From a virus, in IMG/VR virus record IMGVR_UViG_3300026519_000006, positions 1 through 35,881 of that record: DNA of 35,881 nt; one strand, 5' to 3'. A program made the position numbers and the translations under genes. Below the pieces are notes generated by a model. That model saw only the letters and a program-made list of their open reading frames with translations, was not told the origin of the DNA and did not search any database. Positions 2,627 to 35,881 of the stretch are shown here, one piece after another (positions within the stretch are counted from its first letter, which is position 1; each line of letters begins with the position of its first letter).

Positions 2627-4237
2627 TCACCATGGAACATCTATATTATCCACAACAAAGGCCTTCTCCTTCTTTGCACCCCACTCTTCAGGTGTCTTAA
2701 TCTGGTCACCGTCCTCTTGCGACCCGGCCAACCCACCCGGGGGTGACGCGGTTTCAAGCATCCGTCCTGTTGTCGTGCAGAACTTCGTAAATATTTCCTT
2801 ATCGGCGATCGGATTGCAACCCCGCATTTTAATAGCCCGAATTCTGTTATAAAATTCTAACCCATTTTCGCCTTTAACGTTCCTCTCAATCCCCAATGCA
2901 ACGGATACCTTTCTCGCTAACGCACGGCTGCCAGTATACTGGATTAGGGAAACCTCCCCGCCCTCTTCGTGGGGCTTTCCATACTTTGGTGGATTGAGGT
3001 GTGAGGTTGCTATGACCGTGAAGTCCAAGGCGACTACCAAATTCTCCAGCTCCTTGAACATCCAGTTCAGTTTCTCATTCGCGTCACTCGCTGACACACC
3101 GTCAACAAGCGCACTAACCGGGTCGATACAAACGACCTTGGCACCCCGAAGCAGCACCATGTGTCGGGTAAGTTCGACGGCCTGTTCCACGGTTTCTATC
3201 TCCCCATCCGCGCCTAATGTTAATAGCTCTTCCAGAGAACCCGCTGTAGACTTTAACTGTTCGGGGTCATAGTCTACATCGGGGCGGTTATAGAACGTCC
3301 CGTCATGGATTCCTGCTACAGCCCTAACCAAATCCGCAGCCTCCTCTTCAAGCATAATAGCGCCAACTGGAATCCCCTGCTTAATTAACTCCACGATAGT
3401 CATGTGAATGAATTCCGTTTTCGAGCAAGAGATTCCTGCACCTATCCCATAAATCTTCCTAGGCCGTATTCCATACGTAAGTTCTGTCAGCTTTTTCCAA
3501 GGCCAGTTATACCCGTATTCCGGGACACTGTTTATCTCTTCGAGTACATCACCAATAGAAACCATGGTGGCGGGCTTGTACTCCTTCCCCCGGAAAAGCG
3601 CACACTCCGCCAACTCCTTGCTCTTTCCAGCGACTAACATTTCACTCGGGTCTTTCGCTGGTAGAGTTACAACCTTGACCTTCTCCCCGGGGAGTATCTT
3701 TGTCAGCCTCCGTAACCCTTCAGCTCCCGGTTCATCATTGTCCAAGACAAGAATAATCTCTTTTGCCTTGTCTATAAGAGCCTTGTCATGCTCCGTCATG
3801 GCTGGAACATCATTACCATATGGAAGAGATACCACTGCTGGGCACTGGCCCTCGAACTCTGTTCCTGTTTGATACTGCCAGATAGCCCACCATAGCGACA
3901 TGGCATCCTCTTCACCCTCTGTTATCCAGAGGCGTGCCCCGCCGGTTGCTGCTTGTTGGGCACCAAAGAAGCTGACATTGGAGAAGTCGCCTACTGTCAT
4001 GAACTGCTTATCACCAAAACGCTTCTTGTACCCCGTCACCTTTCCATCCTTAAAGCCGGGATAGAACGTTTCTGTTATGTTCCCGGCAGTGTCAACAGTG
4101 TGTCGGACTCCAAAGAATGCCGCTACATCTTTAGGTATTCCTCTGACAGGGTTATCAACCGTAACCCCGAAGAGGCTCACTTGATCCGCCTCTTGCTGCA
4201 ATACTGCTGCATCCTTTTTCGGCTTTGACTTTCTCAT
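2627..4237 (-). CDS. TOPRIM-domain DNA primase/helicase (T7 gp4-like)
   Basis: Replicative helicase with a TOPRIM domain, 536 residues from the ATG at 4237. That ATG has a GAGGAGG ribosome site 8 nt upstream; a GTG at 4264 would add nine residues with no such site. TOPRIM motifs are ITEGEED (E107) and LDNDEPG (D166, D168). The C-terminal half is a RecA/DnaB-type helicase with a Walker B-like VVCIDPVSAL and a sensor-like IATSH. The P-loop is GAGISCSKTE (K273, T274), with Ser272 where the consensus has Gly. No N-terminal zinc-binding primase domain is visible, so priming may be lost or need another factor. It lies immediately upstream of DNA polymerase, the usual replisome pairing. Confidence 0.9.
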   Translation of the reverse strand: MRKSKPKKDAAVLQQEADQVSLFGVTVDNPVRGIPKDVAAFFGVRHTVDTAGNITETFYPGFKDGKVTGYKKRFGDKQFMTVGDFSNVSFFGAQQAATGGARLWITEGEEDAMSLWWAIWQYQTGTEFEGQCPAVVSLPYGNDVPAMTEHDKALIDKAKEIILVLDNDEPGAEGLRRLTKILPGEKVKVVTLPAKDPSEMLVAGKSKELAECALFRGKEYKPATMVSIGDVLEEINSVPEYGYNWPWKKLTELTYGIRPRKIYGIGAGISCSKTEFIHMTIVELIKQGIPVGAIMLEEEAADLVRAVAGIHDGTFYNRPDVDYDPEQLKSTAGSLEELLTLGADGEIETVEQAVELTRHMVLLRGAKVVCIDPVSALVDGVSASDANEKLNWMFKELENLVVALDFTVIATSHLNPPKYGKPHEEGGEVSLIQYTGSRALARKVSVALGIERNVKGENGLEFYNRIRAIKMRGCNPIADKEIFTKFCTTTGRMLETASPPGGLAGSQEDGDQIKTPEEWGAKKEKAFVVDNIDVPW

Positions 4238-4250
4238 TTCCCGAGCCTCC

Positions 4251-4415
4251 TCATACCCCTGCACGGGTGCGCCCCTTACGTTTCTTAAAGTGGCCTCCTG
4301 TCATGATTACCCTTCCGTTCGGAATGTTATCATTCCCGTATTGAAGGGCGTCCGCGTGTTTGCTGAATGGGCCGACTAGTGTAGTTTTGTTTCGGACAAA
4401 GTATTGCTTCTTCAT
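4251..4415 (-). CDS. Small basic protein of unknown function (54 aa)
   Basis: ATG at 4415 follows a strong AAAGGAG ribosome site. The 54-residue product starts MKKQYFVRNKTTLVGPF and ends in a basic Lys/Arg-rich tail (KKRKGRTR). No family recognised. Its start overlaps the stop of the upstream gene (ATGA), and its stop lies inside the leader of the helicase gene, so translation is probably coupled. The basic tail is compatible with nucleic acid binding, but that is only a suggestion. Confidence 0.7.
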   Translation of the reverse strand: MKKQYFVRNKTTLVGPFSKHADALQYGNDNIPNGRVIMTGGHFKKRKGRTRAGV

Positions 4416-4750
4416 TTTGAAATCTCCTTTCGGACTCTTGACAAGGTCAGGTCTGTAATGCGGTGTGTGAATTCCGGGATAGGCTCTATGCGCTGTGGAT
4501 CTGCTTCTCCGAGAGCGTGCTTTATATCCAGAAGAACCGCCTCAGTTGTGGGTGGCAGTACCCCATTCACGGAGAGACTCGCAAATATCTCCGATAGGGA
4601 CGAGAACGCTGTGGCTACCACCGAGTCTGTGTGGCTGTTACAAGAGTTGCCTAAGACCTCAACAAGTTCGTCACCGACAAGGTGGAAGGTTCTGTCATCT
4701 ACTCGGCAGCCCCCCTTACTTTTCGTATATTGCAATCTTGTTTCTGACAT
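4412..4750 (-). CDS. Hypothetical early protein (112 aa)
   Basis: The 112-residue protein begins MSETRLQYTKSKGG. It has no recognised domain, signal peptide or membrane segment. The C-terminal half looks helical and moderately charged. The start overlaps the stop of the preceding membrane-peptide gene (TAATG), with a GGAG about 11 nt upstream. It belongs to a tightly packed leftward operon leading into the helicase and polymerase genes. Confidence 0.7.
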   Translation of the reverse strand: MSETRLQYTKSKGGCRVDDRTFHLVGDELVEVLGNSCNSHTDSVVATAFSSLSEIFASLSVNGVLPPTTEAVLLDIKHALGEADPQRIEPIPEFTHRITDLTLSRVRKEISK

Positions 4751-4884
4751 TACAGCTTCTCCAGTAAGTTTACGATGAACCCAACGGACTTATAGCCAAG
4801 AATTAATGAGAAGTAAATCAAGAGCGAGTTGAGGGTCAGTTTACAGATTTCTGCCTTTGTATTTTGTTCACGGTGATATCTCAT
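4750..4884 (-). CDS. Small membrane-associated peptide (44 aa)
   Basis: ATG at 4884 is preceded by a GGGGAG ribosome site. The 44-residue product has a polar basic N-terminus (MRYHREQNTK), then a hydrophobic stretch LLIYFSLILG that could span or sit on the membrane. Stop and next start overlap as TAATG. Homology unknown; the coupling on both sides argues that it is real. Confidence 0.55.
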   Translation of the reverse strand: MRYHREQNTKAEICKLTLNSLLIYFSLILGYKSVGFIVNLLEKL

Positions 4885-5216
4885 AGTTCTTCACTCCCCT
4901 TTATAACAAACCATTCTAGGTTGTAATTAGCCATCAAGGTGTTCACAGCTCCCGCAAGGTTCCTTTCAACCACAGAGACACCCAACAAAACCTCCTCCCT
5001 GTAGATTAAGAAATTATACTTCCTGTATTCCAGCAGTTCCTCCCATAACGCGTCAATCTCTTTCTGAGTGAGCAATACACTCTCCCAATCATGAACGGAC
5101 TTAAAGAACTCCAGCTCTGCACATAACTCTTCTGCTCGCTGAACGACACCCGTTCCACTCTCCCACGTTGAGTCCGATATCGACCTTGCCAGATTAAGCA
5201 AATCTTCACTGTACAT
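4881..5216 (-). CDS. Hypothetical early protein, acidic and helical (111 aa)
   Basis: A 111-residue acidic protein with predicted amphipathic helices (for example RAEELCAELEFFKSV and EIDALWEELLEYRKY), possibly coiled-coil. No known family recognised. Its start lies within the end of the upstream TM-protein gene and its stop overlaps the next ATG, fitting a compact early operon. Confidence 0.7.
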   Translation of the reverse strand: MYSEDLLNLARSISDSTWESGTGVVQRAEELCAELEFFKSVHDWESVLLTQKEIDALWEELLEYRKYNFLIYREEVLLGVSVVERNLAGAVNTLMANYNLEWFVIKGSEEL

Positions 5217-5418
5217 TTTGGATCCCCTTGATGGCTTCTTGAAAATCTCTGTCCGTCATAAACCCCGCGGTCCTCTCCTCGTTCTGAACACTCCATGGTG
5301 TTGGGGTTGCAGCCGGTGTTACCCGGAAGACAAGGAATGAAACCACGAGCCATACAAGTAGAATAGCTATGACAGTTTCAATTCGGTCTTCTATCCAGTC
5401 AAATACTCTATACAGCAT
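5206..5418 (-). CDS. Small single-TM protein (70 aa)
   Basis: The start is taken at ATG 5418 because a GAGGGGG ribosome site precedes it; an in-frame upstream extension lacks one. The 70-residue product has one strong membrane segment (TVIAILLVWLVVSFLVF, about residues 15-31) followed by a polar tail. It overlaps the end of the upstream gene by 11 nt. Function unknown; small inner-membrane proteins are common in phage early regions. Confidence 0.65.
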   Translation of the reverse strand: MLYRVFDWIEDRIETVIAILLVWLVVSFLVFRVTPAATPTPWSVQNEERTAGFMTDRDFQEAIKGIQNVQ

Positions 5419-7238: not shown

Positions 7239-7661
7239 GAGGAATCTCAAGGGGTGTAACTGGGATTCAAAGGAGTCAGGAGGAAAGTGTCAGGATTCTT
7301 TACAGTGGGAATCAATGGGATTCAAGAGGAGTTAATGGTAGTGGGTTTCAATAGGAATTAAGAGGAGTCAAGAGGAATTAAGAGTGGTGTGCGATCTAAG
7401 GGGAGTTCATGGGAATTGTACTGCAGTGGGATTCAAGAGGGTTTAGTTAGATTCAGTTGGATCCAATGGGATTCAGATTCAATTAGTGTTCAATTCGATT
7501 CTGGTGGTCAATTCAATTCAAGAGGATTCTATTCGATTCCAATTCTATTCCAATTCTGTTGGGTGTTCAATTCGATTCAAGAGGATTCAATTCCGTTGGT
7601 CAGTTCAATTCTATTCTGGTGGTGTTGTCCCTCCCGAGCCCCATCAATCATTCCTTCCATC

Positions 7662-7717
7662 GAATCATCTCGAATCCCATCAATCCATCGAATAAATTGA
7701 ATCATCTCGAATCCCAT
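7662..7717. repeat. 19-bp direct repeat pair (GAATCATCTCGAATCCCAT)
   Basis: Two identical 19-bp copies at 7662-7680 and 7699-7717, offset by 37 bp, followed by further CGAATCCCATC copies to about 7740. The core GAATCC is the reverse complement of the GGATTC core that fills 7240-7620, giving the region a loose inverted symmetry. Confidence 0.85.
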
Positions 7718-7802
7718 AAATCCCATCGAATCCCATCGAAACCCTTCAATGGCCGGGGGATAGAAGAAATTCAGGGGTGGGAAATTTTCAGGGGGGGTTG
7801 GT

Positions 7803-7877
7803 CCTTAAAACATAAAAATGGTATTTAATCCCTTTTGCCCCTTAAAACATAAAAATGGTATTTTAATCCCTTTGGCC
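7803..7877. repeat. 37/38-bp tandem repeat
   Basis: Two adjacent near-identical units, 7803-7839 and 7840-7877, each starting CCTTAAAACATAAAAATGG and ending in CCCTTT-GCC. They differ by one T insertion and one base change. AT-rich, so easily melted. Confidence 0.9.
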
Positions 7878-7881
7878 ATTG

Positions 7882-7936
7882 GAAATCCTTAGGAATCGAT
7901 TAGGGATTAATTAGAAATCCTTAGGAATCGATTAGG
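7882..7936. repeat. Iteron-like 23-bp direct repeats
   Basis: Two identical 23-bp copies at 7882-7904 and 7914-7936 containing CCTTAGGAATCGATTAGG, offset by 32 bp (about three helical turns), followed by a partial third (AATCCTTAAG). The AATCGATT centre is palindromic. Spacing and AT-richness resemble initiator-binding iterons. Confidence 0.8.
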
Positions 7937-8485
7937 AATCCTTAAGATTTGAAATAATAAATTTGTCCCCTTTTCATCCATAATAAAATATTGGGTTTTG
8001 GAAAGGTTGGGATTACTGAGAGAGTGTCAGGATTCTTTACACTTTTCAAAGGGGTATAGATGGGATTGGAAGTAATTCCTAGGAAATTTATATTGGGTTG
8101 TAAGGAGTGGCTGGAATGGTCTAAATCCTTAAGGATATGACGCCAGAGAAGACTTCTCTTTCTAGGAATGGCATAGGGTCAGTTGTGGTTAGGAGGGGCT
8201 TAGAATGGAGCTGAGGGCGTTTAAGAATTCCCACACCCAAATTAAGGTTGGTTATCTGTTGGGTATGGATTCCTCGGAAGGCCATAGATTCCCACACAGG
8301 GTTGGTTATCCCACAGATTAGTGTTCAAGGGGAAGTAGTGAGTTAGGAGTGGTGTTGAACCTTGGGTATGGACCAAGTACCTAGGGCATGGGAAGTGCCT
8401 TAGGAGCACCCTGAGGCCTTGGGGAATGGGTGTGGCCAGGTGTCTTGGGTATTCCTGAGTGGGCTATGGATTCCTGAGAATCCCA

Positions 8486-8515
8486 AAAGACACACTATGT
8501 TATAGGGTACAGAAA
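8486..8515 (+). promoter_or_regulatory. 30-bp conserved element, copy 1 (promoter-like)
   Basis: Identical over 30 bp to 9311-9340. It contains ACACTATGTTATAGGGTACAG, in which TG-T-TATAGG resembles an extended -10 box and TATAGGG resembles the initiation core of single-subunit phage promoters. This copy sits directly upstream of the hairpin-rich stretch 8506-8830. Confidence 0.5.
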
Positions 8516-8830
8516 TTATCCTTGATACGGAGATGGTGAACACCCAAGGTAGAGGATTGGGGCGATGGTCAAACCAAGCTGGTCGGGGCCAATCATGGAA
8601 GAGTAGTGATGATACTTCAGTGACTACCATGCTGAAGAGGAGCAAAGAGTGACGAAGTCTAACCAGCGGGCGAAAAGAGTCTTGGCGACAGTCAAGGGGC
8701 ATCTATATTCGGATTAGTAGATGAATTAGGTGTGGGGCATGGTGCTGGAGCCCGGTTAAGAGCCGATGAAGCACTGAACAAGGAAGTAGATTAGGTCCAA
8801 CTAACCCTGATAACGGATTCGGGGGAAACT
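8506..8830 (+). ncRNA. Candidate structured RNA downstream of promoter-like element
   Basis: No gene on either strand. The plus-strand sequence folds locally into several hairpins: CCTTG/CAAGG with GGTG/CACC inside (8520-8549); CATG and GTAGT paired to ACTAC and CATG (8594-8631); CATCTA/TAGATG (8700-8723); CCCTGA/TCGGGG (8805-8824). It is more GC-rich than its flanks. The upstream 30-bp element could drive it. The boundaries are guesses and no known RNA family was recognised. Confidence 0.3.
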
Positions 8831-8940
8831 AAGGAACATTTCTTTATACCACCCACACACAGGGGATAAGAGATATAGGGCTTCCTGCGTCTTGAAGCGA
8901 CTTGAAGCGAATCCCTAGGCTCAAGTCAAGGGTATGTGAA

Positions 8941-9086
8941 TCTAAGTGATTCTTAGGATTCCTAGGAATTATAGGGTATATACATATATAGTTATAGGGT
9001 ATGTATAGGATTCTAAGTGATTCTTAGGAATTATAGGGTATATACATATATAGTTATAGGGTATGTATAGGATTCTAAGTGATTCC
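8941..9086. repeat. 62/71-bp tandem duplication carrying four TTATAGGGTA motifs
   Basis: Units 8941-9011 (71 bp) and 9012-9073 (62 bp) are the same apart from a 9-bp insertion, and a third partial unit follows (9074-9086). Each unit carries two TTATAGGGTA motifs (8969-8978, 8992-9001, 9031-9040, 9054-9063) flanking an alternating ATATACATATATA tract. Confidence 0.9.
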
Positions 9087-9310
9087 TTATGCTTGTAGCG
9101 AAGCTAGGGTGAAGTAGCGTAGCGTACTGAACCCACTAGGGTAGGCATTCGCCTAGGGAACGTAGTGACCGGTGAGATAGACATATGTTATTATAATATA
9201 TCTTGTTATGTATTGTGTGGGGATATGTCTTGTGTATGTGACTCTTGGGAATTCTTGTGGGTGACTCACTTGTGTGGGACCCCTTCTTGTGTGGGTGACT
9301 CTTGATTTCC

Positions 9311-9340
9311 AAAGACACACTATGTTATAGGGTACAGAAA
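9311..9340 (+). promoter_or_regulatory. 30-bp conserved element, copy 2, just upstream of the rightward arm
   Basis: Same 30 bp as 8486-8515, placed 20 bp before the first rightward gene (9360). TTATAGGGTA occurs at 9325-9334. The position strongly suggests a promoter for the structural arm, read by host RNA polymerase (extended -10 type) or a polymerase not encoded in this window. Confidence 0.55.
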
Positions 9341-9359
9341 AATTAACAGAGGTCATCAC

Positions 9360-9684: not shown

Positions 9685-10018
9685 GGTTGCGAAAGGCAAG
9701 GGTGGCCGCAAGCCGGGGAGCCTCAACAAGAAGACCCTTGCAGCTCTTGCTCTGACAGAGGGACTCACACCTCTCCTCCAGAGGGAAATCCCGAAGGTTA
9801 TCGACGCTTTGATATTTCAGGCCAAGGGAGGCGACGTACCAGCCGCTAGGTTACTTCTTGAGCAGTTCACTCTTAAGGCCAAGGAGCACGCCGCTCTCGT
9901 GGAGGGGCATAACCCCACGGGTGTTGCCACAGGTGGCAAGGGTGCCCTGAATATCAGTATTCAAGTCGTCGGCAGCGACACCGCAAAGGATGTGGATGGG
10001 GAAGTGATTGATGGCTGA
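9671..10018 (+). CDS. Putative terminase small subunit
   Basis: The 115-residue protein carries the pattern GGRKPGSLNKKTLAAL, then IDALIFQAKGGDVPAARLLLE, seen in small packaging/DNA-binding proteins located just before large terminases. It would recognise packaging sites and load the large subunit. ATG 9671 lacks a close ribosome site (the nearest GGAGG is about 20 nt away), and GTG 9677 is an alternative. It overlaps the large subunit gene by 8 nt. The assignment rests on motif and position. Confidence 0.65.
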   Translation: MCVGEVAKGKGGRKPGSLNKKTLAALALTEGLTPLLQREIPKVIDALIFQAKGGDVPAARLLLEQFTLKAKEHAALVEGHNPTGVATGGKGALNISIQVVGSDTAKDVDGEVIDG

Positions 10019-11339
10019 CTTCAAACTCCACGAGAAGCAGGCGGAAGTTCTGCGATTAACCTCCGAACTCAAGAAGAGGTATGTGGTGTTCGCCGCCGGT
10101 AGGCGTAGTGGGAAAAGCTACTTGGCTGCAATATGGCTTCTCCTTCAGGCTCTTGAAGAACCGAAGCCGGGGGTGACGTATGGCCCTACCGCGAGAGTGT
10201 TATACGTCGCACCAACTATCGGGATGGCGATTGACATCATGCAAGACCTGTTCATGGAGATAGCAGGAGACTACATCCAAAACTTTTCAGCACGTCGCCT
10301 TGAATTCACTTTGGTCAATGGCCGGAAGGTTAAGCTCGCCGGGTGTGACAAAACAAGGTCACTCCGTGGCGGGAGTCTTATCGCACTTGCGCTAGACGAA
10401 GTCCAAGATGTCAACATCCCCGAGGTGTGGGATAGGGTTCTCCGACCAGCAACAGGTGATTTGAAGGCAAACTGCTTGTTCATCGGAACACCATTGCCGG
10501 GGACAGCCGAGGAGTGGCACGCCCTTTACCGGCGCGGCCTCGATGAGGAAAACCCGAACTGGGCCTCTGTGCATTGTAACAGCACAGATAACCCGTTTAT
10601 CGATATGCAGTCGGAGGTTGACCAAGCGAGGCTGGACGGTGTCTCTGAGACCATTATCAACCAAGAATACTTTGCCAGCTTTGAGCTTACATCTGCATCC
10701 CAATTCGACACACAGAACGTCCCCACCTACACGGAGCTCCCACAGGGTACCCGGACGTATATCTCAGTTGACTTGATGGGTTTCAAGGATATATCGGGGC
10801 TCACCATCAAAGAGATAGGCAGTCTGGACGAAACCGTGATATCTGTTGTTTCAGTAGACACCCGTAACCACTGGTATGTACGGAACATGATAACAGGAAG
10901 GTGGGGTGTGGAGGAAACAGCGAGGCGGATTGCGAGAGCGGCAGCACAGTATCAGCCACACAAGTTGGGTCTTGAGGCTGGGGTGTTAAAGAACGCCGTG
11001 CTACCCTTCTTACAGCAAGAGCTTAACACTGCGGGTGCTTTCATTTCCGTGAATGACCTTAAGCATGGGAACGTAAACAAGGTTGACCGGGTATTCTGGG
11101 CATTACAAGGAAGGTTTGAGCGTGGAATGATTCACTACCCCGATGGTGCAGTCTGGTGTGAGAAGCTGAACAAACAGCTTAACGCCTTCCCCAACAGGTA
11201 CGTTCACGATGACATGCCGGACTCCCTAGCGTATATTCAACAACTAGCGGACGCGGCAGTTGATGTGGACGCATACTTAGCGCTGGAGGAGGAATCGGTT
11301 ACCTACGATGAACCCATTGACGAGACAACAGGTTACTAA
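10011..11339 (+). CDS. terL: Terminase large subunit
   Basis: Packaging ATPase/nuclease of 442 residues. Walker A is GRRSGKSY (about residues 29-36), Walker B is LALDEVQD and a motif III-like FIGTPLPG follows. The C-terminal RNase H-like nuclease shows YISVDLMGFKD with a metal-binding Asp and ends in HDDMPDSLAYI. It would cut concatemers and pump DNA into the prohead through the portal encoded by the next gene. The start is ATG 10011, not the TTG three bases upstream. The stop overlaps the portal ATG (TAATG). Confidence 0.93.
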   Translation: MADFKLHEKQAEVLRLTSELKKRYVVFAAGRRSGKSYLAAIWLLLQALEEPKPGVTYGPTARVLYVAPTIGMAIDIMQDLFMEIAGDYIQNFSARRLEFTLVNGRKVKLAGCDKTRSLRGGSLIALALDEVQDVNIPEVWDRVLRPATGDLKANCLFIGTPLPGTAEEWHALYRRGLDEENPNWASVHCNSTDNPFIDMQSEVDQARLDGVSETIINQEYFASFELTSASQFDTQNVPTYTELPQGTRTYISVDLMGFKDISGLTIKEIGSLDETVISVVSVDTRNHWYVRNMITGRWGVEETARRIARAAAQYQPHKLGLEAGVLKNAVLPFLQQELNTAGAFISVNDLKHGNVNKVDRVFWALQGRFERGMIHYPDGAVWCEKLNKQLNAFPNRYVHDDMPDSLAYIQQLADAAVDVDAYLALEEESVTYDEPIDETTGY

Positions 11340-13345
11340 TGGCTAAAATTAAATTAGAAGATTTGACCTACAAAAACCATGTGGGTGACACATCCTTGAT
11401 GTCTGAGGTAGCCCATAAGGTGGAGAGGGCAGCTTCTTGGATGAAGCAGACTTATCACTCCCGGTGGGAAAAGTACCGCCTCCTCTGGGCGACAGAGTTC
11501 AAGGAGACTTTGAGAACTCGAAACAGCGAACGGTGCAAGCTGATAACACCCACCACACAAATCGGCGTGGATACCGGGACAGCCCAGTTAGACTCCTCCC
11601 TTGGTTATTTGTCGTTTATCGAAGTTGACCCGGATGTCCCCGAGGAGGGTATCGAGGCGTGGCGTGAGACTTACGCCGAGCTGTGGGACAACATGGTATC
11701 AGCCTTCCGCAACGACCTTGCGAATAACGGGAACCGTGAGGAAATATCAGACGCTATATTCAACGCGGGGCTCCTTGGCCTTGGGGTTTTGAAAGTGGTC
11801 GAGGAAGAGGAGGAGTATCAAGAGCTGTCCCCCGGCCCTCAGGGTGGTGGCGCTGTCTCTATAACGAAGAGACGTACAAACATCACACTGCGGTCAGTTG
11901 ACCCAAGGAACTTCCACTTCCCTAAGGGGGCCGTAGGTGTTGAGGACAGCCCTTACGTTGTTGAGGAGATGAAAGTCCCGGCGCACACTATTGAGGAGAG
12001 AATCCGACTGGGTGTGTACTCCCCCGTCGAGTACACGGCTGACGAAGACTCAATGGTCACACTGTACGAATACCACGGGGTACTGAGTAAAGCCATCTTG
12101 GATTCCACAATGTACACATCAATGCCGGATGAACTGGTAGTCAGAGAGCTGAATGAAGACAAGATGGTAGAAGCTATCGTTGTGTGGGCCAAGGGCGCGA
12201 AAGCACCTTTCTTCGCAGACGAGACACCATTTCTCGATAAGAAGAGGTCATACCTGACTTTTGTGTGGGACAGGGAACAAGGTTCTCCCGTGGGTCGTGG
12301 AATTGCGGCCAAGGTGTTCAGCGTACAGAAAGCGCAAGATGCAAACCTACGGGCACGGACAGACGCCATGGCCTACGCAGTCCACCCGATGGTGGGTGTT
12401 GATAACCTGAAGCTGGTTTCCCGGCGAAGGATGAAGGTGTCTCCCGGCGCTCAGATTCTAACTCAAGGTGACCCCAACCGTGCGATAGTTCCATTCCGGT
12501 TCGGTGACATACCACAATCTGCGTTCCTTCAGGCACAGGAGTTGGCATCCCTCGCCGCACAGTCCACAGGGTTGGACGCATTCGGTGGCACCGATGTCAA
12601 GTACCAGTCCGGAGAGGGCATGCAAACCCTTCAACAGGGAACCGTTGCAAGGTCAAGGAAGGTACAGGAAAACATGGTGGCGTTCTTGAAGGAGGCTATA
12701 AATCTGTTCCTGTGGAGAAGCACACAGGCAGACCCGGAAAGATACCCTCCAGTTGCACCGGGGTTCAAGGTGACTATCAATGTTGGAAGCCTGACGAGGG
12801 CGCATGAGATGTCCCAAATATCAGGGATGCTCAAGACAATTCCAGAACAGTCACCGGCGTATTGGAGACTCCTAATCAAATACTTTGAGCTTTCAGACCT
12901 GCCAGACAAGGAGCAAGTCATCTCAGACATGAGGAAGCTCGCGGAAGCTTCCCTTAACCCACCGCCTCCCCAACCAACGTATCAAGAGCAGTTGTTGGAA
13001 AGGAAGATGGCCTTGGAGGAAATGCGTGAGAAAGCGAGTATTCAACTTCAAGCGGCTCGTGTCCGGGCTGAGCTTGTTAGGGCAGCAGCTTCAATCGAGA
13101 AGATTGACGTTGATGAAATGAAAGCGAAGGCGGACGCAATACTAAGCTTGGCGAAGGCTGAGGCTGCAGAGGTTGGTTCGCAGTTGGATAAGTACAAGGC
13201 TCTCGTGGAGGGTATGTCAAATGAAGCAAGCCTCACAACAGGAGACAGACTTACAGGATTGGGAACAGGAGGAGGAGCGCCGGGAGATGGACTTACGGTC
13301 TCTATGCCAGTACCCGGAGTGGGAGACACTCCAGAGGAAGCTTGA
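11339..13345 (+). CDS. Portal (head-tail connector) protein
   Basis: The 668-residue protein is placed directly after terminase and before the scaffold. The N-terminus (VERAASWMKQTYHSRWEKYRL) and the middle (EEISDAIFNAGLLGLGVLKV) are typical of podovirus portal proteins of the large type. The C-terminal 130 residues are Ala/Glu/Lys-rich and probably helical, like the portal barrel. It forms the dodecameric ring for DNA entry and exit. The last 125 nt overlap the next gene in another frame. Confidence 0.85.
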   Translation: MAKIKLEDLTYKNHVGDTSLMSEVAHKVERAASWMKQTYHSRWEKYRLLWATEFKETLRTRNSERCKLITPTTQIGVDTGTAQLDSSLGYLSFIEVDPDVPEEGIEAWRETYAELWDNMVSAFRNDLANNGNREEISDAIFNAGLLGLGVLKVVEEEEEYQELSPGPQGGGAVSITKRRTNITLRSVDPRNFHFPKGAVGVEDSPYVVEEMKVPAHTIEERIRLGVYSPVEYTADEDSMVTLYEYHGVLSKAILDSTMYTSMPDELVVRELNEDKMVEAIVVWAKGAKAPFFADETPFLDKKRSYLTFVWDREQGSPVGRGIAAKVFSVQKAQDANLRARTDAMAYAVHPMVGVDNLKLVSRRRMKVSPGAQILTQGDPNRAIVPFRFGDIPQSAFLQAQELASLAAQSTGLDAFGGTDVKYQSGEGMQTLQQGTVARSRKVQENMVAFLKEAINLFLWRSTQADPERYPPVAPGFKVTINVGSLTRAHEMSQISGMLKTIPEQSPAYWRLLIKYFELSDLPDKEQVISDMRKLAEASLNPPPPQPTYQEQLLERKMALEEMREKASIQLQAARVRAELVRAAASIEKIDVDEMKAKADAILSLAKAEAAEVGSQLDKYKALVEGMSNEASLTTGDRLTGLGTGGGAPGDGLTVSMPVPGVGDTPEEA

Positions 13346-13510: not shown

Positions 13511-13681
13511 ATGGGTGATGATAAGGAGACAGAAGTGAAAGCCACCTCGGCGAAGAAGAGCCGCCGGAAAAAGCCACCGACGTTGCAGGAAATCCTGAGG
13601 AAGGAACAAGAAGAGCGCCGGAGAGCTTTTGAGGCCAGCCACAAACCAACCCGACTTAAAAGGAACGAGGTGAAAGAATGA
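13511..13681 (+). CDS. Small basic protein before scaffold (56 aa)
   Basis: ATG 13511 gives a 56-residue highly charged protein rich in Lys, Arg and Glu (SAKKSRRKKPPTLQEILRK), probably an extended helix. Its TGA overlaps the scaffold ATG (ATGA). It could assist assembly or bind DNA, but nothing specific can be shown. Confidence 0.65.
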   Translation: MGDDKETEVKATSAKKSRRKKPPTLQEILRKEQEERRRAFEASHKPTRLKRNEVKE

Positions 13682-14427
13682 GTCTTGACTCTTTGTATCT
13701 GGAGGGGGACAACATAGCCCCTGCTAACGTTGGCGGACAAGTGGGGCAACTGGTTGCGGATAAAGTGCCGGGCAATATCAGCCCCAAGGAGGCAAGCGCA
13801 GACCTTACCATGGTTCAGCAACAGCTTGCTATTGCACAGCAACAGGTAGACCAGTACAAAACACTCTCTGACCAACTCCTGAACTTCACGGTGGCGGGGG
13901 CTGAAGCTACGCAGCCGCAAGACCCTGAAGCCATCCTCGACGAGTTCGAGAAAGACCCACAGGCCGTTATTCGGAGGGAAGCGGAGCGGTTACTGGCGGA
14001 AAGGGAGAAGACAAGCGACCCCGCGACGGACGAGGTTAAGCAGAGGCTTGATGAACTTATGGCCAAGGACGCGAGGGAGTCCTTATCGAAAGAGGTGGAG
14101 GACTACACTGAAGTCTTCAAGAATCCTGAGTTTCAAACCTTTCTGGAGGAGAACCCAACCTACAAGCAGGTTCTCGCTATCGCCAACCAAGAGTATGACG
14201 TAAATACAATCGCTGGCGTGTTGAACCACTTCAAAACGACTCAAGGTGGTGGAAATGCCAGCAGTAAAAGAATTCCAACAAACTCCCCAAGCAAGGGTGG
14301 GGGCGGAGGAAGTGGTCGGGTGTTTAGCCGGGAGGCTATAAAGAAACTCTCCATCGAGAACCCGACGGAGTTCGCCAAGTTGAGTGGCGAAATCGCACAG
14401 GCCTACAAAGAAGGCCGCGTTAAGTAA
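13678..14427 (+). CDS. Putative scaffolding protein
   Basis: A 249-residue acidic, helix-rich protein with a Gln-rich coiled segment (MVQQQLAIAQQQVDQYKTL) and a C-terminal Gly/Ser linker leading to a small charged domain (IKKLSIENPTEFAKLSG). Size, composition and position immediately upstream of the major capsid gene fit a prohead scaffold that binds the coat by its C-terminus. Sequence identity to known scaffolds is not evident by eye. Confidence 0.75.
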   Translation: MSLDSLYLEGDNIAPANVGGQVGQLVADKVPGNISPKEASADLTMVQQQLAIAQQQVDQYKTLSDQLLNFTVAGAEATQPQDPEAILDEFEKDPQAVIRREAERLLAEREKTSDPATDEVKQRLDELMAKDARESLSKEVEDYTEVFKNPEFQTFLEENPTYKQVLAIANQEYDVNTIAGVLNHFKTTQGGGNASSKRIPTNSPSKGGGGGSGRVFSREAIKKLSIENPTEFAKLSGEIAQAYKEGRVK

Positions 14428-14441
14428 AGTAAGGAGCAGAC

Positions 14442-14731
14442 ATGCCTTTAGGTACAAACCATCAATCTCCCGGTAACCCCGGTATCGAGGACTTTATTCC
14501 AGAACAGTGGGGTGACCTCGTTGTAGCTGCCTATGACGCCAAGACCGCGATGAAGGAAATCGTGACCATTGTGCCTCACAGTGCAAACCGAGGTGACACT
14601 ATAGTTATCCCGGTTGAGGGTCCGAACGTCAGCCCAGCTGCCAAGCAGTTCCAGACTGAGGTCACCCTCCAGCAGCACGATTCAAGCAACGTTCGGCTGG
14701 TTGTTAACAAGCAGTTTGAATTTTCGCGGCT
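14442..14731 (+). CDS. Major capsid protein, exon 1
   Basis: First coding part of the capsid gene, beginning MPLGTNHQSPGNPGIEDFIP after an AAGGAG site. It ends at CT of a Leu codon at 14731, in VNKQFEFSRL. If unspliced the frame stops at TGA 14736-14738 after 98 residues. Joined to exon 2 at 15628 it restores RLIEDKESSQ, a continuation typical of this capsid family, and gives a 325-residue protein. Exons total 978 nt, a multiple of three. It forms the icosahedral shell on the scaffold made by the preceding gene. Confidence 0.85.
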
Positions 14732-15627
14732 TAATTGATAGGCCAGTAACCCTTGATAAATAACTGGGAACCCATCGTGGGGCAACCAGAGGCAACGTGA
14801 ATCCACTCTAGGAGTGTTGAAAATGAAAATGAATGAAACTGATATCAAATACTTTGCAGGACTTTTGGACGCGGACGGGTGTGTGTCCCTCAGGTTTATC
14901 ACCTCGAAGGGAGTGCGCCGGGTAAGCGTTGGACTGTCTCTGTCCCAGAGGGAGTCCCATGCAGCACCTGTTCTACAACTATGTGAACTCTTCAACGTAA
15001 CCCCCCACTACCGGGATGGCAAGGTTGAGTTCAGCGCGGCGAGGAAAACAAAGCTCCTTGCCTTCGCAGATAGGGTATGCAAGTATATGGTGGTGAAGGG
15101 TAGTCTCTTGCGGTTCGCGGTCGATTCCGCGTACCAAAGAGAGTCCTCAACAGTTTCACCGGAGGAAGAACAGTCACTCCGGAAAGAGTTCACCGAGCGG
15201 AGACGAATCGGTGGGCCAGTAAAATCAATCAAGCATGTATCGAGCTCTTGGGCAGCGGGTTTCCTAGATGGTGATGGGAACTACTCAATGCGGCTCAGAA
15301 AGACAAAGAATGGAAGAAGCGATGACTTGTGTGTAAGGGTGGGTCTTACTAAGACCGAGAAGGTTCTAGCGCTCCAAAAGCTTGCAGACAGGTTCGGAGG
15401 GGTACTCCATAAAGAGCGAGATAAACGGGGATACTTCAACTGGAGGTTATCCTTGGGCAAAGGCAACAAGAAGCTTGCCGTCTCCTTCCTTAAAGACATG
15501 CGAAAGCGCTCCAAGGTGAAGCGCGAGAAGATTGAGAAGTTACTTCATTATCATACACGGGCCGCACAGACTGAACTCGAGGGGCCGCATTGCGGTAAGC
15601 TACAGTCGAGCACCCAAAAGGGTGTTG
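14732..15627 (+). other. Group I self-splicing intron in the major capsid gene (896 nt)
   Basis: The capsid frame is interrupted by sequence with a group I core. The internal guide TTGATAGGCC (14735-14744) pairs with joined exons GGCT|TATCGA: P1 with the U-G wobble at the 5' site and P10 with the 3' exon. P3 is CCCTTGA (14750-14756)/TCGAGGG (15577-15583). P4 is CTGG (14764-14767)/CCAG (14786-14789), and P5 is CCCA/TGGG (14771-14781). P7 is GACTG (15569-15573)/CAGTC (15603-15607). P8 is CCGC/GCGG (15585-15595), and P9 is CACCC-AAAA-GGGTG (15611-15624). The last base is G15627. The endonuclease gene is inserted in the P6 region. Confidence 0.88.
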
Positions 15628-15680
15628 TATCGAAGACAAAGAAAGTTCACAATCTCTGTCCAGCCTCATGCCCCTGCTGA
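14823..15680 (+). CDS. LAGLIDADG homing endonuclease, intron-encoded
   Basis: Two-motif LAGLIDADG enzyme, 285 residues from ATG 14823, with AGGAG 8 nt upstream (GTG 14814 is less likely). Motif 1 is FAGLLDADG near residue 15; motif 2 is AAGFLDGDG near residue 145. Each carries the acidic catalytic residue at its end. Such enzymes cut intronless alleles of the host gene and spread the intron; some also act as maturases. The frame continues through P7, P8 and P9 and 53 nt into capsid exon 2, so its C-terminal 17 codons exist only in unspliced RNA. Confidence 0.92.
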   Translation: MKMNETDIKYFAGLLDADGCVSLRFITSKGVRRVSVGLSLSQRESHAAPVLQLCELFNVTPHYRDGKVEFSAARKTKLLAFADRVCKYMVVKGSLLRFAVDSAYQRESSTVSPEEEQSLRKEFTERRRIGGPVKSIKHVSSSWAAGFLDGDGNYSMRLRKTKNGRSDDLCVRVGLTKTEKVLALQKLADRFGGVLHKERDKRGYFNWRLSLGKGNKKLAVSFLKDMRKRSKVKREKIEKLLHYHTRAAQTELEGPHCGKLQSSTQKGVVSKTKKVHNLCPASCPC

Positions 15681-16315
15681 CCAAGGCAGCGGGCCGCAGC
15701 ATGGCACGCCATACCGATGCTCAAATTATGGCACTGGCAGCAAGCTCCTTCAACGGAGGCACTGCCTTCGCTGGTACGGTTGACCCGTATGGCTCGGACT
15801 GGGGAACCGCCTTTAAGACCTCCATCTCCAACCAGCGTGTTGTAATCGGATCTGATGGTGCGACCATCTATAACGGCACGAACGCCGCGTCTCTCACGGA
15901 CGCAGCAATTCTGTCCGTTGTTCTCCAACTGGAGAACTCGGACGTGGACACCAGCGACTTGGTGTGGGTGCTGCCGCCTTCTGCGAAGCGCGACATCCTG
16001 AACATCGACAAGTTCACTCTGGTTAACATGAGCGGTGACATTGGCCGGATGAAGGGCCAGTTCGGAGAGCTGTACGGTATCCCAGTGGTAATCACCAACG
16101 CCTGTCCTAAGGTCGTTGACGGTGCCTCTGGCCACGACCGTGTTGGCTTCTTGCTCTCTAAGGAGGCCTTGTATATGGCCTACCAGTGGGACGTTCGTGC
16201 ACAGGAGTCCTACCTACAGCAGTACCTTGGTACTCTATATACCATGGACAACCTCTACGGTCTGGCCGTGGCTCGTGACTACGCAGGCATCGCAATCGCG
16301 ATCCCCAACCAGTAA
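15628..16315 (+). CDS. Major capsid protein, exon 2
   Basis: Second part of the capsid gene. It opens with TATCGAAGAC, which completes RLIED with exon 1, then SLMPLLTKAAGRSMARHTDA and the rest of the coat fold to SQ-free C-terminus AIAIPNQ. It is 228 complete codons plus the split one. An ATG at 15668 lies in frame, but starting there would lose half the fold, so splicing is needed for a normal coat protein. It is followed by a hairpin terminator. Confidence 0.88.
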
Positions 16316-27200: not shown

Positions 27201-27347
27201 GACTTTGCCTTTGGGGGAAAGGAGCTCAGAAGGGCTCGGACTCTTCAGAGAAGGAGGAGAGAGGCCAGAACCCGGAACCGGTCATGGAGGGAAAGAGAGG
27301 CAGCACGACTGCGTAGAGAAGAATCATTAAAGACGAGGTATCAATGA
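24285..27347 (+). CDS. Large internal virion / ejection protein
   Basis: The largest gene in the window, 1020 residues. The N-terminus has a Tyr/Glu/Leu-periodic stretch (KEYQEYLEYLEYQEYLATL). Next come Ala/Gly-rich hydrophobic patches, long helical regions, and a conserved-looking LLLLGQVKTVLLNITDVANT block around residue 660. The C-terminus is Arg-rich. I see no lytic transglycosylase or peptidase motif. By position (after two other internal proteins, before the fibre and lysis genes) it is the large core protein that helps channel DNA into the cell. Confidence 0.7.
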   Translation: MSGDKEYQEYLEYLEYQEYLATLGAGESDDPVEKTVAMQKRVAAEKRQLELVAAQAEADRELRKAETLDRMTVYEQLKDTAVVALSGDNMISNGLQTIYNAILPTPQGMTDEEFKEDLSKRRESRLDRLKESPQYGVGNIVSDLATGLVAPSYAGARIGVAAAEGAAWMAADNILRANAEQEDINPWDLAKDTAIGAAGGAAVGQVSSWLVGRASKEIAKELVDSGVPVSQVAKGEAATSVFDQMEREAVDTATTIRAGGKSPKTSRQVLRELEEFVQSRPELVEEVRGIDLRQEYLDKVKAIVDMDEDEFLDLSVRASKVSGDPVDTPKARRVLGKAGEKVAKKAEDATKEADVLVQKGMNPDEAVKVASVRAGLGEKQPATPRIAQRLARRMAERGGIVKALDKGVGTYLTRLKSLSYSAGSALARMESKVHVQLGEVKPLLDEVESAFKGLPRSVRKDLESSALTGGPRMVLERASAKGTLTPELKAAMEKLDPVLSSLGKRILKGTEVKTLGEGRWWPRRRKADTDRGVLGKETTPFETTRSVAGRSTKERTVEAVRVDDLKNYESPIRSLQETLETEIRKQSAREFFGSYWGGSADYGETVLQSIGKFVKGEIEAGRLLPENAKEVHGLLKSRFLTAEEVKTSSLSIAESMTQLLLLGQVKTVLLNITDVANTVAKNGLRSTVDAIAGRVPKGINPDTVGLGDRFVMEVEDNVGKSASAARFMQGAVQWVFEKVGFVKLERATSNLALKASYSRLRRQVSTNKGAQEFRTKYSSFAESPQELEEVIGALKSGEDKGKVLEYMFAELLEVKPVSKSSKSQLFSEGAGRYLGILKSFVVQQMDIGRREIIQELAHGSKRKGAENAVKYLTAWTLIGGSVATGIDALRGEPIDEETIEDNIIDNLLILSGLSSMNLRDLEEKGPVAAFTNWMAPAPIAAAERLYRDVENAVVTKDPRVVRNIPIIGEPLYDFAFGGKELRRARTLQRRRREARTRNRSWREREAARLRREESLKTRYQ

Positions 27348-28483
27348 TTATAACCAACAGGACTCTCTACAGGGTCAATGAGGATGGGACGAAGTCATTT
27401 CTGGTGGAAGGGAGCTGGGTATCCTTGGCGGCCTCCCCTGACTTCCTCTTGGACACAGAAGGTCTCGTCCCCTTTCAGTGGGAGTTTGATGATACGATAA
27501 ACAAGTACCGCAAGTTTTTGGGAGAGGATACTTGGGGAGCTTGGACGGATGTTCCCGCCGGTGGCTCCGGGGGTACCTCCGGAGCCCAAGGACCTCCGGG
27601 GCCCCAAGGACCTCCGGGGCCTCAAGGACCTCAGGGGCCTCAAGGACCGCAAGGACCTCAGGGGCCTTCGGGGGGAGGGTTACCCGCCAATGGGAATTCA
27701 GATGTCCACATCATTGACGAGAACGGGACTGTAGTAAGGTACGACACAGCTATTAATGGATTAAGGACTTCCTTCGCCCCCAACAGTGACCTAATCAACA
27801 CGTACTCCAACGGGATTGGTTTCTACACAGAGAACGGAATCAATGGCCGCAACAGCAATATGACTAGCAACGGGTTCCAAGCGAACGGGACGAATGAGCA
27901 GGCAACCTTGTTCCCCGGGTACTTGGATATCACGAACAGCAACTCCCCGTATATAAATCTGGGCAATGCTGGGGGACAGTCAGGTAACCTCAGACTCCAA
28001 TACCGGTATGATGGTGGGGGGCACCTTATCGGGTTCGGGCTCCCCAACGGTGCCCATATCTTCTATGCACAGTCGAACACAGGTGGGGCGCATAGCTACA
28101 AGTTTACAGGTACCGGGGTTACTGAATACTCTGGTCCTGTCCACGTTGATGGGCTTGTTAAGAGCAGGGTTCAAGTGTCGGCTTTGGTCACTGATACAAT
28201 CCTCAGTGCATCTGAATCCGGGAGTGTCTATACCAACAAAGGGGCAACCGGCCCCGTAACCTTGACCCTTCCCGCAACAGACACGGGAGTAGTCTTCGAG
28301 ATTGTAAACCTTGAGGCCCAGACCTTGAGCATTATAGTCACGGCGGGGAGTTCAATCCAAGCGGGCGCGGTAACAGGCAACACCCTCTCAACTAACGTGG
28401 TGGGGTCTGTGGTGAAACTGGTATCAATCTCGTCAACGGAGTGGGTTGTGTTGAACAGCCTGAACGGACCATGGGCGTTGTAA
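27344..28483 (+). CDS. Fibre protein with collagen-like segment
   Basis: The 379-residue protein has an N-terminal head of about 75 residues, then ten Gly-X-Y triplets (from GAQ to GPS, encoded at 27581-27670), then a beta-rich region of about 260 residues. Collagen-like stretches in phage fibres form trimeric stalks. The C-terminal part (about residues 280-379) is a smooth beta domain, possibly the receptor-binding tip. ATG overlaps the stop of the large ejection gene, and the 3' end overlaps the lysozyme gene by 13 nt. Confidence 0.8.
   Translation: MIITNRTLYRVNEDGTKSFLVEGSWVSLAASPDFLLDTEGLVPFQWEFDDTINKYRKFLGEDTWGAWTDVPAGGSGGTSGAQGPPGPQGPPGPQGPQGPQGPQGPQGPSGGGLPANGNSDVHIIDENGTVVRYDTAINGLRTSFAPNSDLINTYSNGIGFYTENGINGRNSNMTSNGFQANGTNEQATLFPGYLDITNSNSPYINLGNAGGQSGNLRLQYRYDGGGHLIGFGLPNGAHIFYAQSNTGGAHSYKFTGTGVTEYSGPVHVDGLVKSRVQVSALVTDTILSASESGSVYTNKGATGPVTLTLPATDTGVVFEIVNLEAQTLSIIVTAGSSIQAGAVTGNTLSTNVVGSVVKLVSISSTEWVVLNSLNGPWAL
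27581..27670 (+). repeat. Collagen-like 9-bp codon repeats (10 Gly-X-Y triplets)
   Basis: Ten 9-bp units of GGN-CCN-CAA/CAG or CCG type. Third positions vary, so protein-level selection as well as repeat expansion maintains it. Confidence 0.9.
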
Positions 28484-35683: not shown

Positions 35684-35881
35684 CTACTGTGCTGTTGGAA
35701 CGCCCGGAACCGGAGGGACGGCTGGGGCAGCAGGAGCCGCCGGAGCAGCAGGAGCCGCCGGAGCTGCAGGAGCCGCCGGAGCTGCAGGAGCCACCGGAGC
35801 TGCAGGAGCCGCCGGAGCTGCAGGAGCCACCGGAGCTGCAGGAGCCACCGGAGCTGCAGGAGCCGCCGGAGCTGCAGGAGC
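35684..35881 (-). CDS. C-terminal part of the Ala-Pro repeat protein (continues from position 1)
   Basis: This reads on from the left-edge gene in the same frame if position 35881 adjoins position 1: eight further APAAP-V/A units (35881-35738) then a tail ending AVPPVPGVPTAQ and TAG at 35684-35686. It adds 65 residues. The exonuclease ribosome site follows 33 nt later, so the two genes are in one operon. Confidence 0.6.
   Translation of the reverse strand, partial: APAAPAAPAAPVAPAAPVAPAAPAAPAAPVAPAAPAAPAAPAAPAAPAAPAAPAVPPVPGVPTAQ
35738..35881. repeat. 18-bp tandem repeat array, right part
   Basis: Eight full 18-bp units ending exactly at the window edge. The unit types in order are G (with one internal AGCAG variant), G, G, A, G, A, A, G. 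The last three units equal the first three at the left edge (54 bp). The joined array has 14 full units, or 11 if the 54 bp is a terminal redundancy. Confidence 0.95.

Follow-up and report, generated by a model that had tools for sequence, protein, structure and literature searches.

The stretch of DNA analysed here (the window) is a 35.9-kb virus contig of 35,881 nucleotides, recovered in one metagenome assembly. Its genes for the terminase (10008-11339) and the portal protein (11339-13345) precede the gene for the major capsid protein (MCP), and the open reading frame at 13678-14427 resembles a scaffold gene by position only. The MCP gene is interrupted at 14732-15627 by a group I intron of 896 nt. 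The features of the locus are as follows (vertical bars mark splice junctions):

14442-14731, + strand: MCP exon 1, codons 1-96 plus CU of codon 97; matches PHROG 267
14732-15627, + strand: group I intron, 896 nt, phase 2, in codon L97 of the conserved motif SRL|IED
14735-14744, + strand: internal guide, with P10 UUGAUA at 14735-14740, the P1 3' strand GGCC at 14741-14744 and the wobble U14731.G14741
14736-14738, + strand: in-frame TGA that terminates unspliced exon 1 a few nt inside the intron (ORF 14442-14738)
14750-14756, + strand: P3 5' strand CCCUUGA, pairing with UCGAGGG at 15577-15583
14757-14763, + strand: J3/4 UAAAUAA, near-invariant among related introns
14764-14789, + strand: P4 (CUGG 14764-14767, CCAG 14786-14789) and, inside it, P5 (CCC 14771-14773 with GGG)
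14791-14793, + strand: P6 5' strand GGC, pairing with GCC at 15561-15563; the endonuclease gene lies in loop 6
14804-14816, + strand: hairpin CACUC-UAG-GAGUG covering the Shine-Dalgarno sequence of the endonuclease gene
14823-15680, + strand: LAGLIDADG_1 homing endonuclease ORF, 285 aa, conserved part ending near 15572
15569-15607, + strand: P7 region, GACUG at 15569-15573 with CAGUC at 15603-15607, from covariation
15577-15583, + strand: P3 3' strand, from covariation
15584-15596, + strand: P8, GCCGC at 15584-15588 with GCGGU at 15592-15596, from covariation
15611-15624, + strand: P9 hairpin CACCC-aaaa-GGGUG, from sequence; terminal G at 15627
15628-16315, + strand: MCP exon 2, from the U of codon 97 to the stop

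Both exons match PHROG 267 (major head protein), which bears out the identification of the gene as that of the major capsid protein. The known phages related to the window by their MCP are freshwater cyanophages with about 28-32% identity, namely Saffermanviridae such as A-4L and LPP-2, and also PP and Pf-WMP3, and their capsid genes match as one piece. Elsewhere in the window, an identical GC-rich 18-nt tandem repeat (an APA-type coding repeat) occupies positions 1-120 and 35730-35881, and the break of the contig probably falls within a single gene that bears the repeat, in a genome that is circularly permuted or was circularised. Tandem and diverged repeats with periods of 10-62 fill the region 7400-9350 between oppositely directed gene blocks, where convincing genes are absent. 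Collagen-like GPQ repeats (27575-27673) occur in the product predicted for 27344-28483, which may be a tail or fibre protein.

The unspliced MCP frame, 14442-14738, stops early at the TGA, and the frame resumes at 15628. Joining 14442-14731 to 15628-16315 gives a protein of 325 aa that contains the peptide RLIEDK. Across this join, about 95 homologues without an interruption have the continuous sequence (K)HFEFSRLIED..Q, and the spliced window has KQFEFSRLIED..Q. At the same position, KHFEFSRLIEDITEVQA or a close variant is present in 84 uninterrupted IMG/VR loci in one search and in 16 more in another, where the spliced window has KQFEFSRLIEDKESSQS; the comparison of the two places the insertion within codon 97, directly 5' of the invariant IED. 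Of the 44 in-frame U..G junction pairs close to the ends, two allow ten pairs with the guide, and FEFSRLIED is restored by 14731/15627 alone. The earlier note had set the intron at 14732-15627, had derived RLIED and a 325-residue protein from the join, and had named homologues with an insertion at this place as contrary evidence. The junction and the protein are upheld, the former as the only one of the 44 that restores a homologous protein, and the homologues found read uninterrupted across the join. No allele of the window phage lacking the intron was found, the nearest MCP (56% identity) being interrupted at other places.

All 10 nt of the internal guide UUGAUAGGCC (14735-14744) form base pairs with GGCU|UAUCGA, in 4+6 bp; P10 pairs with exon 2 and the U14731.G14741 wobble sits at the 5' splice site. 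This gap-free guide with its U.G pair had already been pointed out, and the chance of such a guide in a composition-matched random stretch of 40 nt is 0.0009. Upstream, GCUGGUU at 14696-14702 pairs over 7 bp with the guide region (GGCCAGU), and its end at 14702 may be a cryptic 5' splice site, as judged from pairing. As the true 5' site, 14702 was ranked first by a P1/P10 scoring tied to P3 and was rejected: it lies outside the MCP frame, and splicing from it would drop conserved residues and not restore the MCP.

The group I assignment is based on covariation and on a manual assignment of the helices. All of P3, P4, P5, P7, P8, P9 and the terminal G, as listed in the earlier note, are present, and so is P6. 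The core comprises the P3-P8 and P4-P6 domains with P7 crossing P3, which is a hallmark of group I introns. In an alignment of 27 different related introns, from which the endonuclease gene was cut out, 96.7% of the cells of the named structure pair, 21 of the 26 pairs show changes on both sides, and compensatory changes occur in all tested core helices. P6 is paired throughout (100%), with three pairs that changed on both sides. The covariation score is 0.734 versus 0.188 after shuffling (0/500); since the structure was drawn from these same, related sequences, the shuffle count is not a probability and the effect size carries the weight. Sliding the structure by one column lowers the pairing to 37-39%. 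RNAalifold finds P3, P4 and P8 in the 27 cores unaided, and the strong covariation confirms P3, P4, P6, P7 and P8.

It could be argued that the ribozyme is degenerate and does not splice, so that the capsid protein would be made as two chains, one of 98 aa from exon 1 and one of 215 aa from ATG 15668 onward. Both frames indeed exist as ORFs. However, the second chain would be without the invariant IED motif, no clear ribosome site was seen before ATG 15668, and the core helices are all intact and show compensatory pairs. We therefore regard two separate chains as very improbable.

A covariance-model search for group I introns had been proposed as a check in the earlier note, and with Rfam this search did not support the call: no match to the window reached gathering scores, none fell within 14400-16000 at E 10, and the group I model RF00028 had no match at that threshold; what Rfam returned under permissive settings was put down to chance. 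The related intron of Pseudomonas phage HHBS10_2, described below, likewise goes undetected by Rfam. The Rfam seed is without the subgroups ID and IE (PMC11878797). The missing RF00028 match is thus a matter of the library and not a defining biological feature. P7.1 and P7.2 are absent in the window, where 3 nt separate the P7 5' strand from the P3 3' strand, and no clear P2 is seen; it follows that the intron does not have the IA2 layout of the T4, SPO1 and Twort introns. Its subgroup is best given as not IA2-like.

Most of the insert is taken up by the endonuclease ORF, which matches PF00961 (LAGLIDADG_1) with E 2.6e-10 and has two LAGLIDADG motifs, GLLDADG and GFLDGDG. Its tail overlaps P7-P9 and, in another frame, 53 nt of exon 2. 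LAGLIDADG_1 was found in 27 of 28 family members. In many relatives the stop codon of the enzyme directly follows the P7 3' strand, so that the coding sequence shares bases with the ribozyme core. Hairpins resembling that of the window, but with other stem sequences, precede the start codon in about half of 26 relatives, eight of them at a shuffle p < 0.05, and by analogy with T4 introns we infer that such a hairpin might damp translation of the enzyme from unspliced RNA. The tested points of the earlier note held, and the endonuclease and its run into exon 2 were unnamed there.

A natural control is provided by Pseudomonas phage HHBS10_2 (PQ287653), whose enzyme is 33.7% identical to that of the window and whose interrupted capsid gene carries the same core signature in an unannotated MCP intron (3911-4795). 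In this case, the splice-site rules alone predicted an intron of 885 nt between AFIES and EQYSKF. Fourteen other matching records of closely related Pseudomonas phages (O4, TC6, PA11 and others) are without the intron, and for most of these the aligned length is 516 nt of the 1401-nt query, exactly 885 nt less. When HHBS10_2 is aligned to O4 and TC6, both filed under Zobellviridae, GAGAGT|GAACAATATAGC stands where its intron begins and ends. The prediction matched this empty site to the base. The HHBS10_2 record has no annotated MCP, and some of exon 2 is taken up there by a hypothetical CDS on the reverse strand.

Disruption of the MCP gene by a free-standing homing endonuclease gene, with no ribozyme involved, would agree with the 285-aa LAGLIDADG ORF filling most of the insert. 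We nevertheless give this explanation hardly any credit, for a covarying group I core flanks the ORF on both sides, a guide is present and the empty site in the HHBS10_2 case is exact. Inteins and some group II introns can carry LAGLIDADG enzymes too, but either kind of element can practically be dismissed here, as exon 1 runs into a TGA within 7 nt, the frame of the insert is not continuous with exon 2, and the last exon base U, the terminal G, the P1/P10 guide and the P3-P7 core are group I features.

The exact insertion into a conserved motif, the covarying core, the LAGLIDADG gene, the empty site in a relative and a wide family linked to insertion sites, described below, were all observed. 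They point to the locus being, very probably, a mobile, self-splicing group I intron of the capsid pre-mRNA that carries a LAGLIDADG gene and belongs to a phage lineage settling in MCP genes. Splicing, cleavage and homing of the window intron are what we infer from this material. P1 (GGCU/GGCC) would fix the 5' splice site at the U.G pair, where guanosine bound at P7 would attack. The freed exon 1, aligned to exon 2 by P10, would then attack after the terminal G15627 and so give the mRNA for the 325-aa MCP. In unspliced RNA, translation of exon 1 would end at the TGA (14736-14738), and the endonuclease could be made from loop 6, its ribosome site lying within the hairpin. The enzyme would cut intron-free MCP alleles near SRL|IED, and repair would copy the intron in. 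The window element itself would stem from a phage lineage of introns that repeatedly settled in MCP genes.

The nearest relative of the window, with the 56% identical MCP mentioned above, is L088 (IMGVR_UViG_3300037538_000017). Its MCP gene holds two introns of the family, at 2905-3783 and about 4389-5285, each with its own LAGLIDADG gene. The first is inserted 9 nt 5' of the position used in the window (FEF|SWLLED), with a P1 of 6 bp and a P10 of 4 bp. The second is near the end of the MCP (QE|YLGNLF), with a P1 of 6 bp and a P10 of only 1 bp, and its junction is less sure; its enzyme is 37% identical to the first enzyme of L088 and to that of the window. Since the introns of the window and of L088 sit at different sites, each gene represents an empty site for the other.

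The extent of the family was assessed by an IMG/VR search with a profile built from three endonuclease sequences, two of them from MCP introns, which returned 80 loci. Queries with single MCP or endonuclease sequences gave no matches against viral contigs; alignment queries succeeded. The endonuclease clade occurs together with the core at some 60 or more loci of IMG/VR, almost all of which are MCP genes, and the host MCPs span three or more PHROG families with roughly a dozen positions. The loci share one layout: J3/4 UAAAUAA or UGAAUAA, P4-GA-P5-AA-P4', P6, the endonuclease gene, P6', P7, P3', P8, P7' and P9. Exon-2 proteins from 67 loci, the window included, match PHROG 267 (48), 3437 (17) and 9953 (5), overlapping families that are all annotated as major head protein; the non-capsid hosts among the 67 are terminase (4), DNA polymerase (1) and UvsX (1). 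As several of these loci are near-duplicates, the numbers count contigs and not independent events. The preference for MCP genes may also be overstated, since the search started from endonucleases, two of three of which lie in MCP introns.

A protein-independent scan for the core by DNA pattern found, besides known loci, introns in five further genes judged by eye to be MCP-like (L168, L172, L183, L187 and L188) and one terminase case, Pseudoalteromonas phage J2-1. The pattern matches L182 and L191, both in coding sequence, were discarded as chance. Among 50,697 phage records, the endonuclease clade was found only in HHBS10_2 and J2-1. A search for the endonuclease in a collection of bacterial and archaeal genomes gave one weak match of 35 residues and no evidence for bacterial copies. 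In J2-1 (L178/L007), the core signature and a related endonuclease stand beside the gene for the terminase large subunit, and what is annotated as terminase is likely just the 3' exon. Endonucleases of more remote kinship lie beside terminase, UvsX-like and DNA polymerase genes (L152, L156, L166, L143 and L160), through which the shift of host gene could be traced.

The junctions occupy about a dozen different positions in the MCP, such as IES|EQY, EQ|Y, FYR|NV, YKG|DAW, PEIW|, FEF|S and SRL|IED; they were read by eye and rule, and those of the PEIW and FQT groups, L089/L090 and L120 are approximate. The endonuclease tree groups by insertion site, with support of 100/98 for FYR|N, 100/99 for PEIW and 100/99 for the window plus L088, the depth of the window and L088 in the tree being unsure because of their long branches.

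By mechanism, the window element is an ordinary group I intron; its lineage and the attachment of this lineage to capsid genes are unusual. The introns in the T4 genes td, nrdB and nrdD, which are of group IA2 with P7.1/P7.2, encode GIY-YIG or HNH-type enzymes. They likewise carry the endonuclease gene in a ribozyme loop (in td, loop 6), and share with the window the early intron stop codon and the ribosome site in a hairpin. The window intron differs from them in the 3-nt spacing of P7 and P3, the lack of a clear P2 and its LAGLIDADG enzyme. A closer parallel by host gene is the MCP intron of mycobacteriophage LittleE, whose splicing was demonstrated by RT-PCR and N-terminal sequencing (PMC3706429). 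It resembles the window intron in having a U before it, a G at its end and a LAGLIDADG-type gene inside. However, LittleE has P7-like strands in its first 200 nt, followed by the endonuclease gene on the opposite strand, whereas that of the window lies in loop 6 on the coding strand and in a different MCP; the J3/4 signature of the family was not found in the LittleE intron. The lactococcal phage Tuc2009 is cited in the same paper for an intron in a capsid gene, a likeness by description only. Cyanophage Pf-WMP3, with a distantly homologous MCP, also has a mobile group I intron, in its case of group IA2, in another gene (DNA polymerase) and with an HNH enzyme (PMC3428280). For phage PhiPA3, PMC11620839 reports that an intron-encoded endonuclease hinders a co-infecting phage; its target and intron differ from those of the window.

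That introns in capsid genes are uncommon, as the earlier note had stated, remains true of known phages, with few published cases, but not within the lineage of the window, where the capsid gene is the usual host. As a kind, capsid-gene introns are known from LittleE and Tuc2009, and it seems to be the MCP-focused lineage that is new; no description of it was found in the open-access literature, which is not proof of novelty. It is possible, though rather doubtful, that these elements form an undescribed lineage of LAGLIDADG introns with no clear P2 that is specialised in capsid genes, enters various conserved MCP motifs, shifts to nearby sites, doubles up within a single gene and acts as a competition weapon. 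If this were true, cutting the capsid gene of intron-free rivals would be such a weapon in mixed infections.

A widespread family of mobile introns is thus missed by the standard RNA library, and the capsid genes concerned look broken or absent, so that virus surveys based on MCP as a marker will lose or split the intron-bearing genomes. The repeated choice of one host gene in several MCP families, together with clades tied to insertion sites, offers a natural series for studying how a homing endonuclease changes its target. The same series also bears on the question of how an intron is tolerated in a gene with very high expression.
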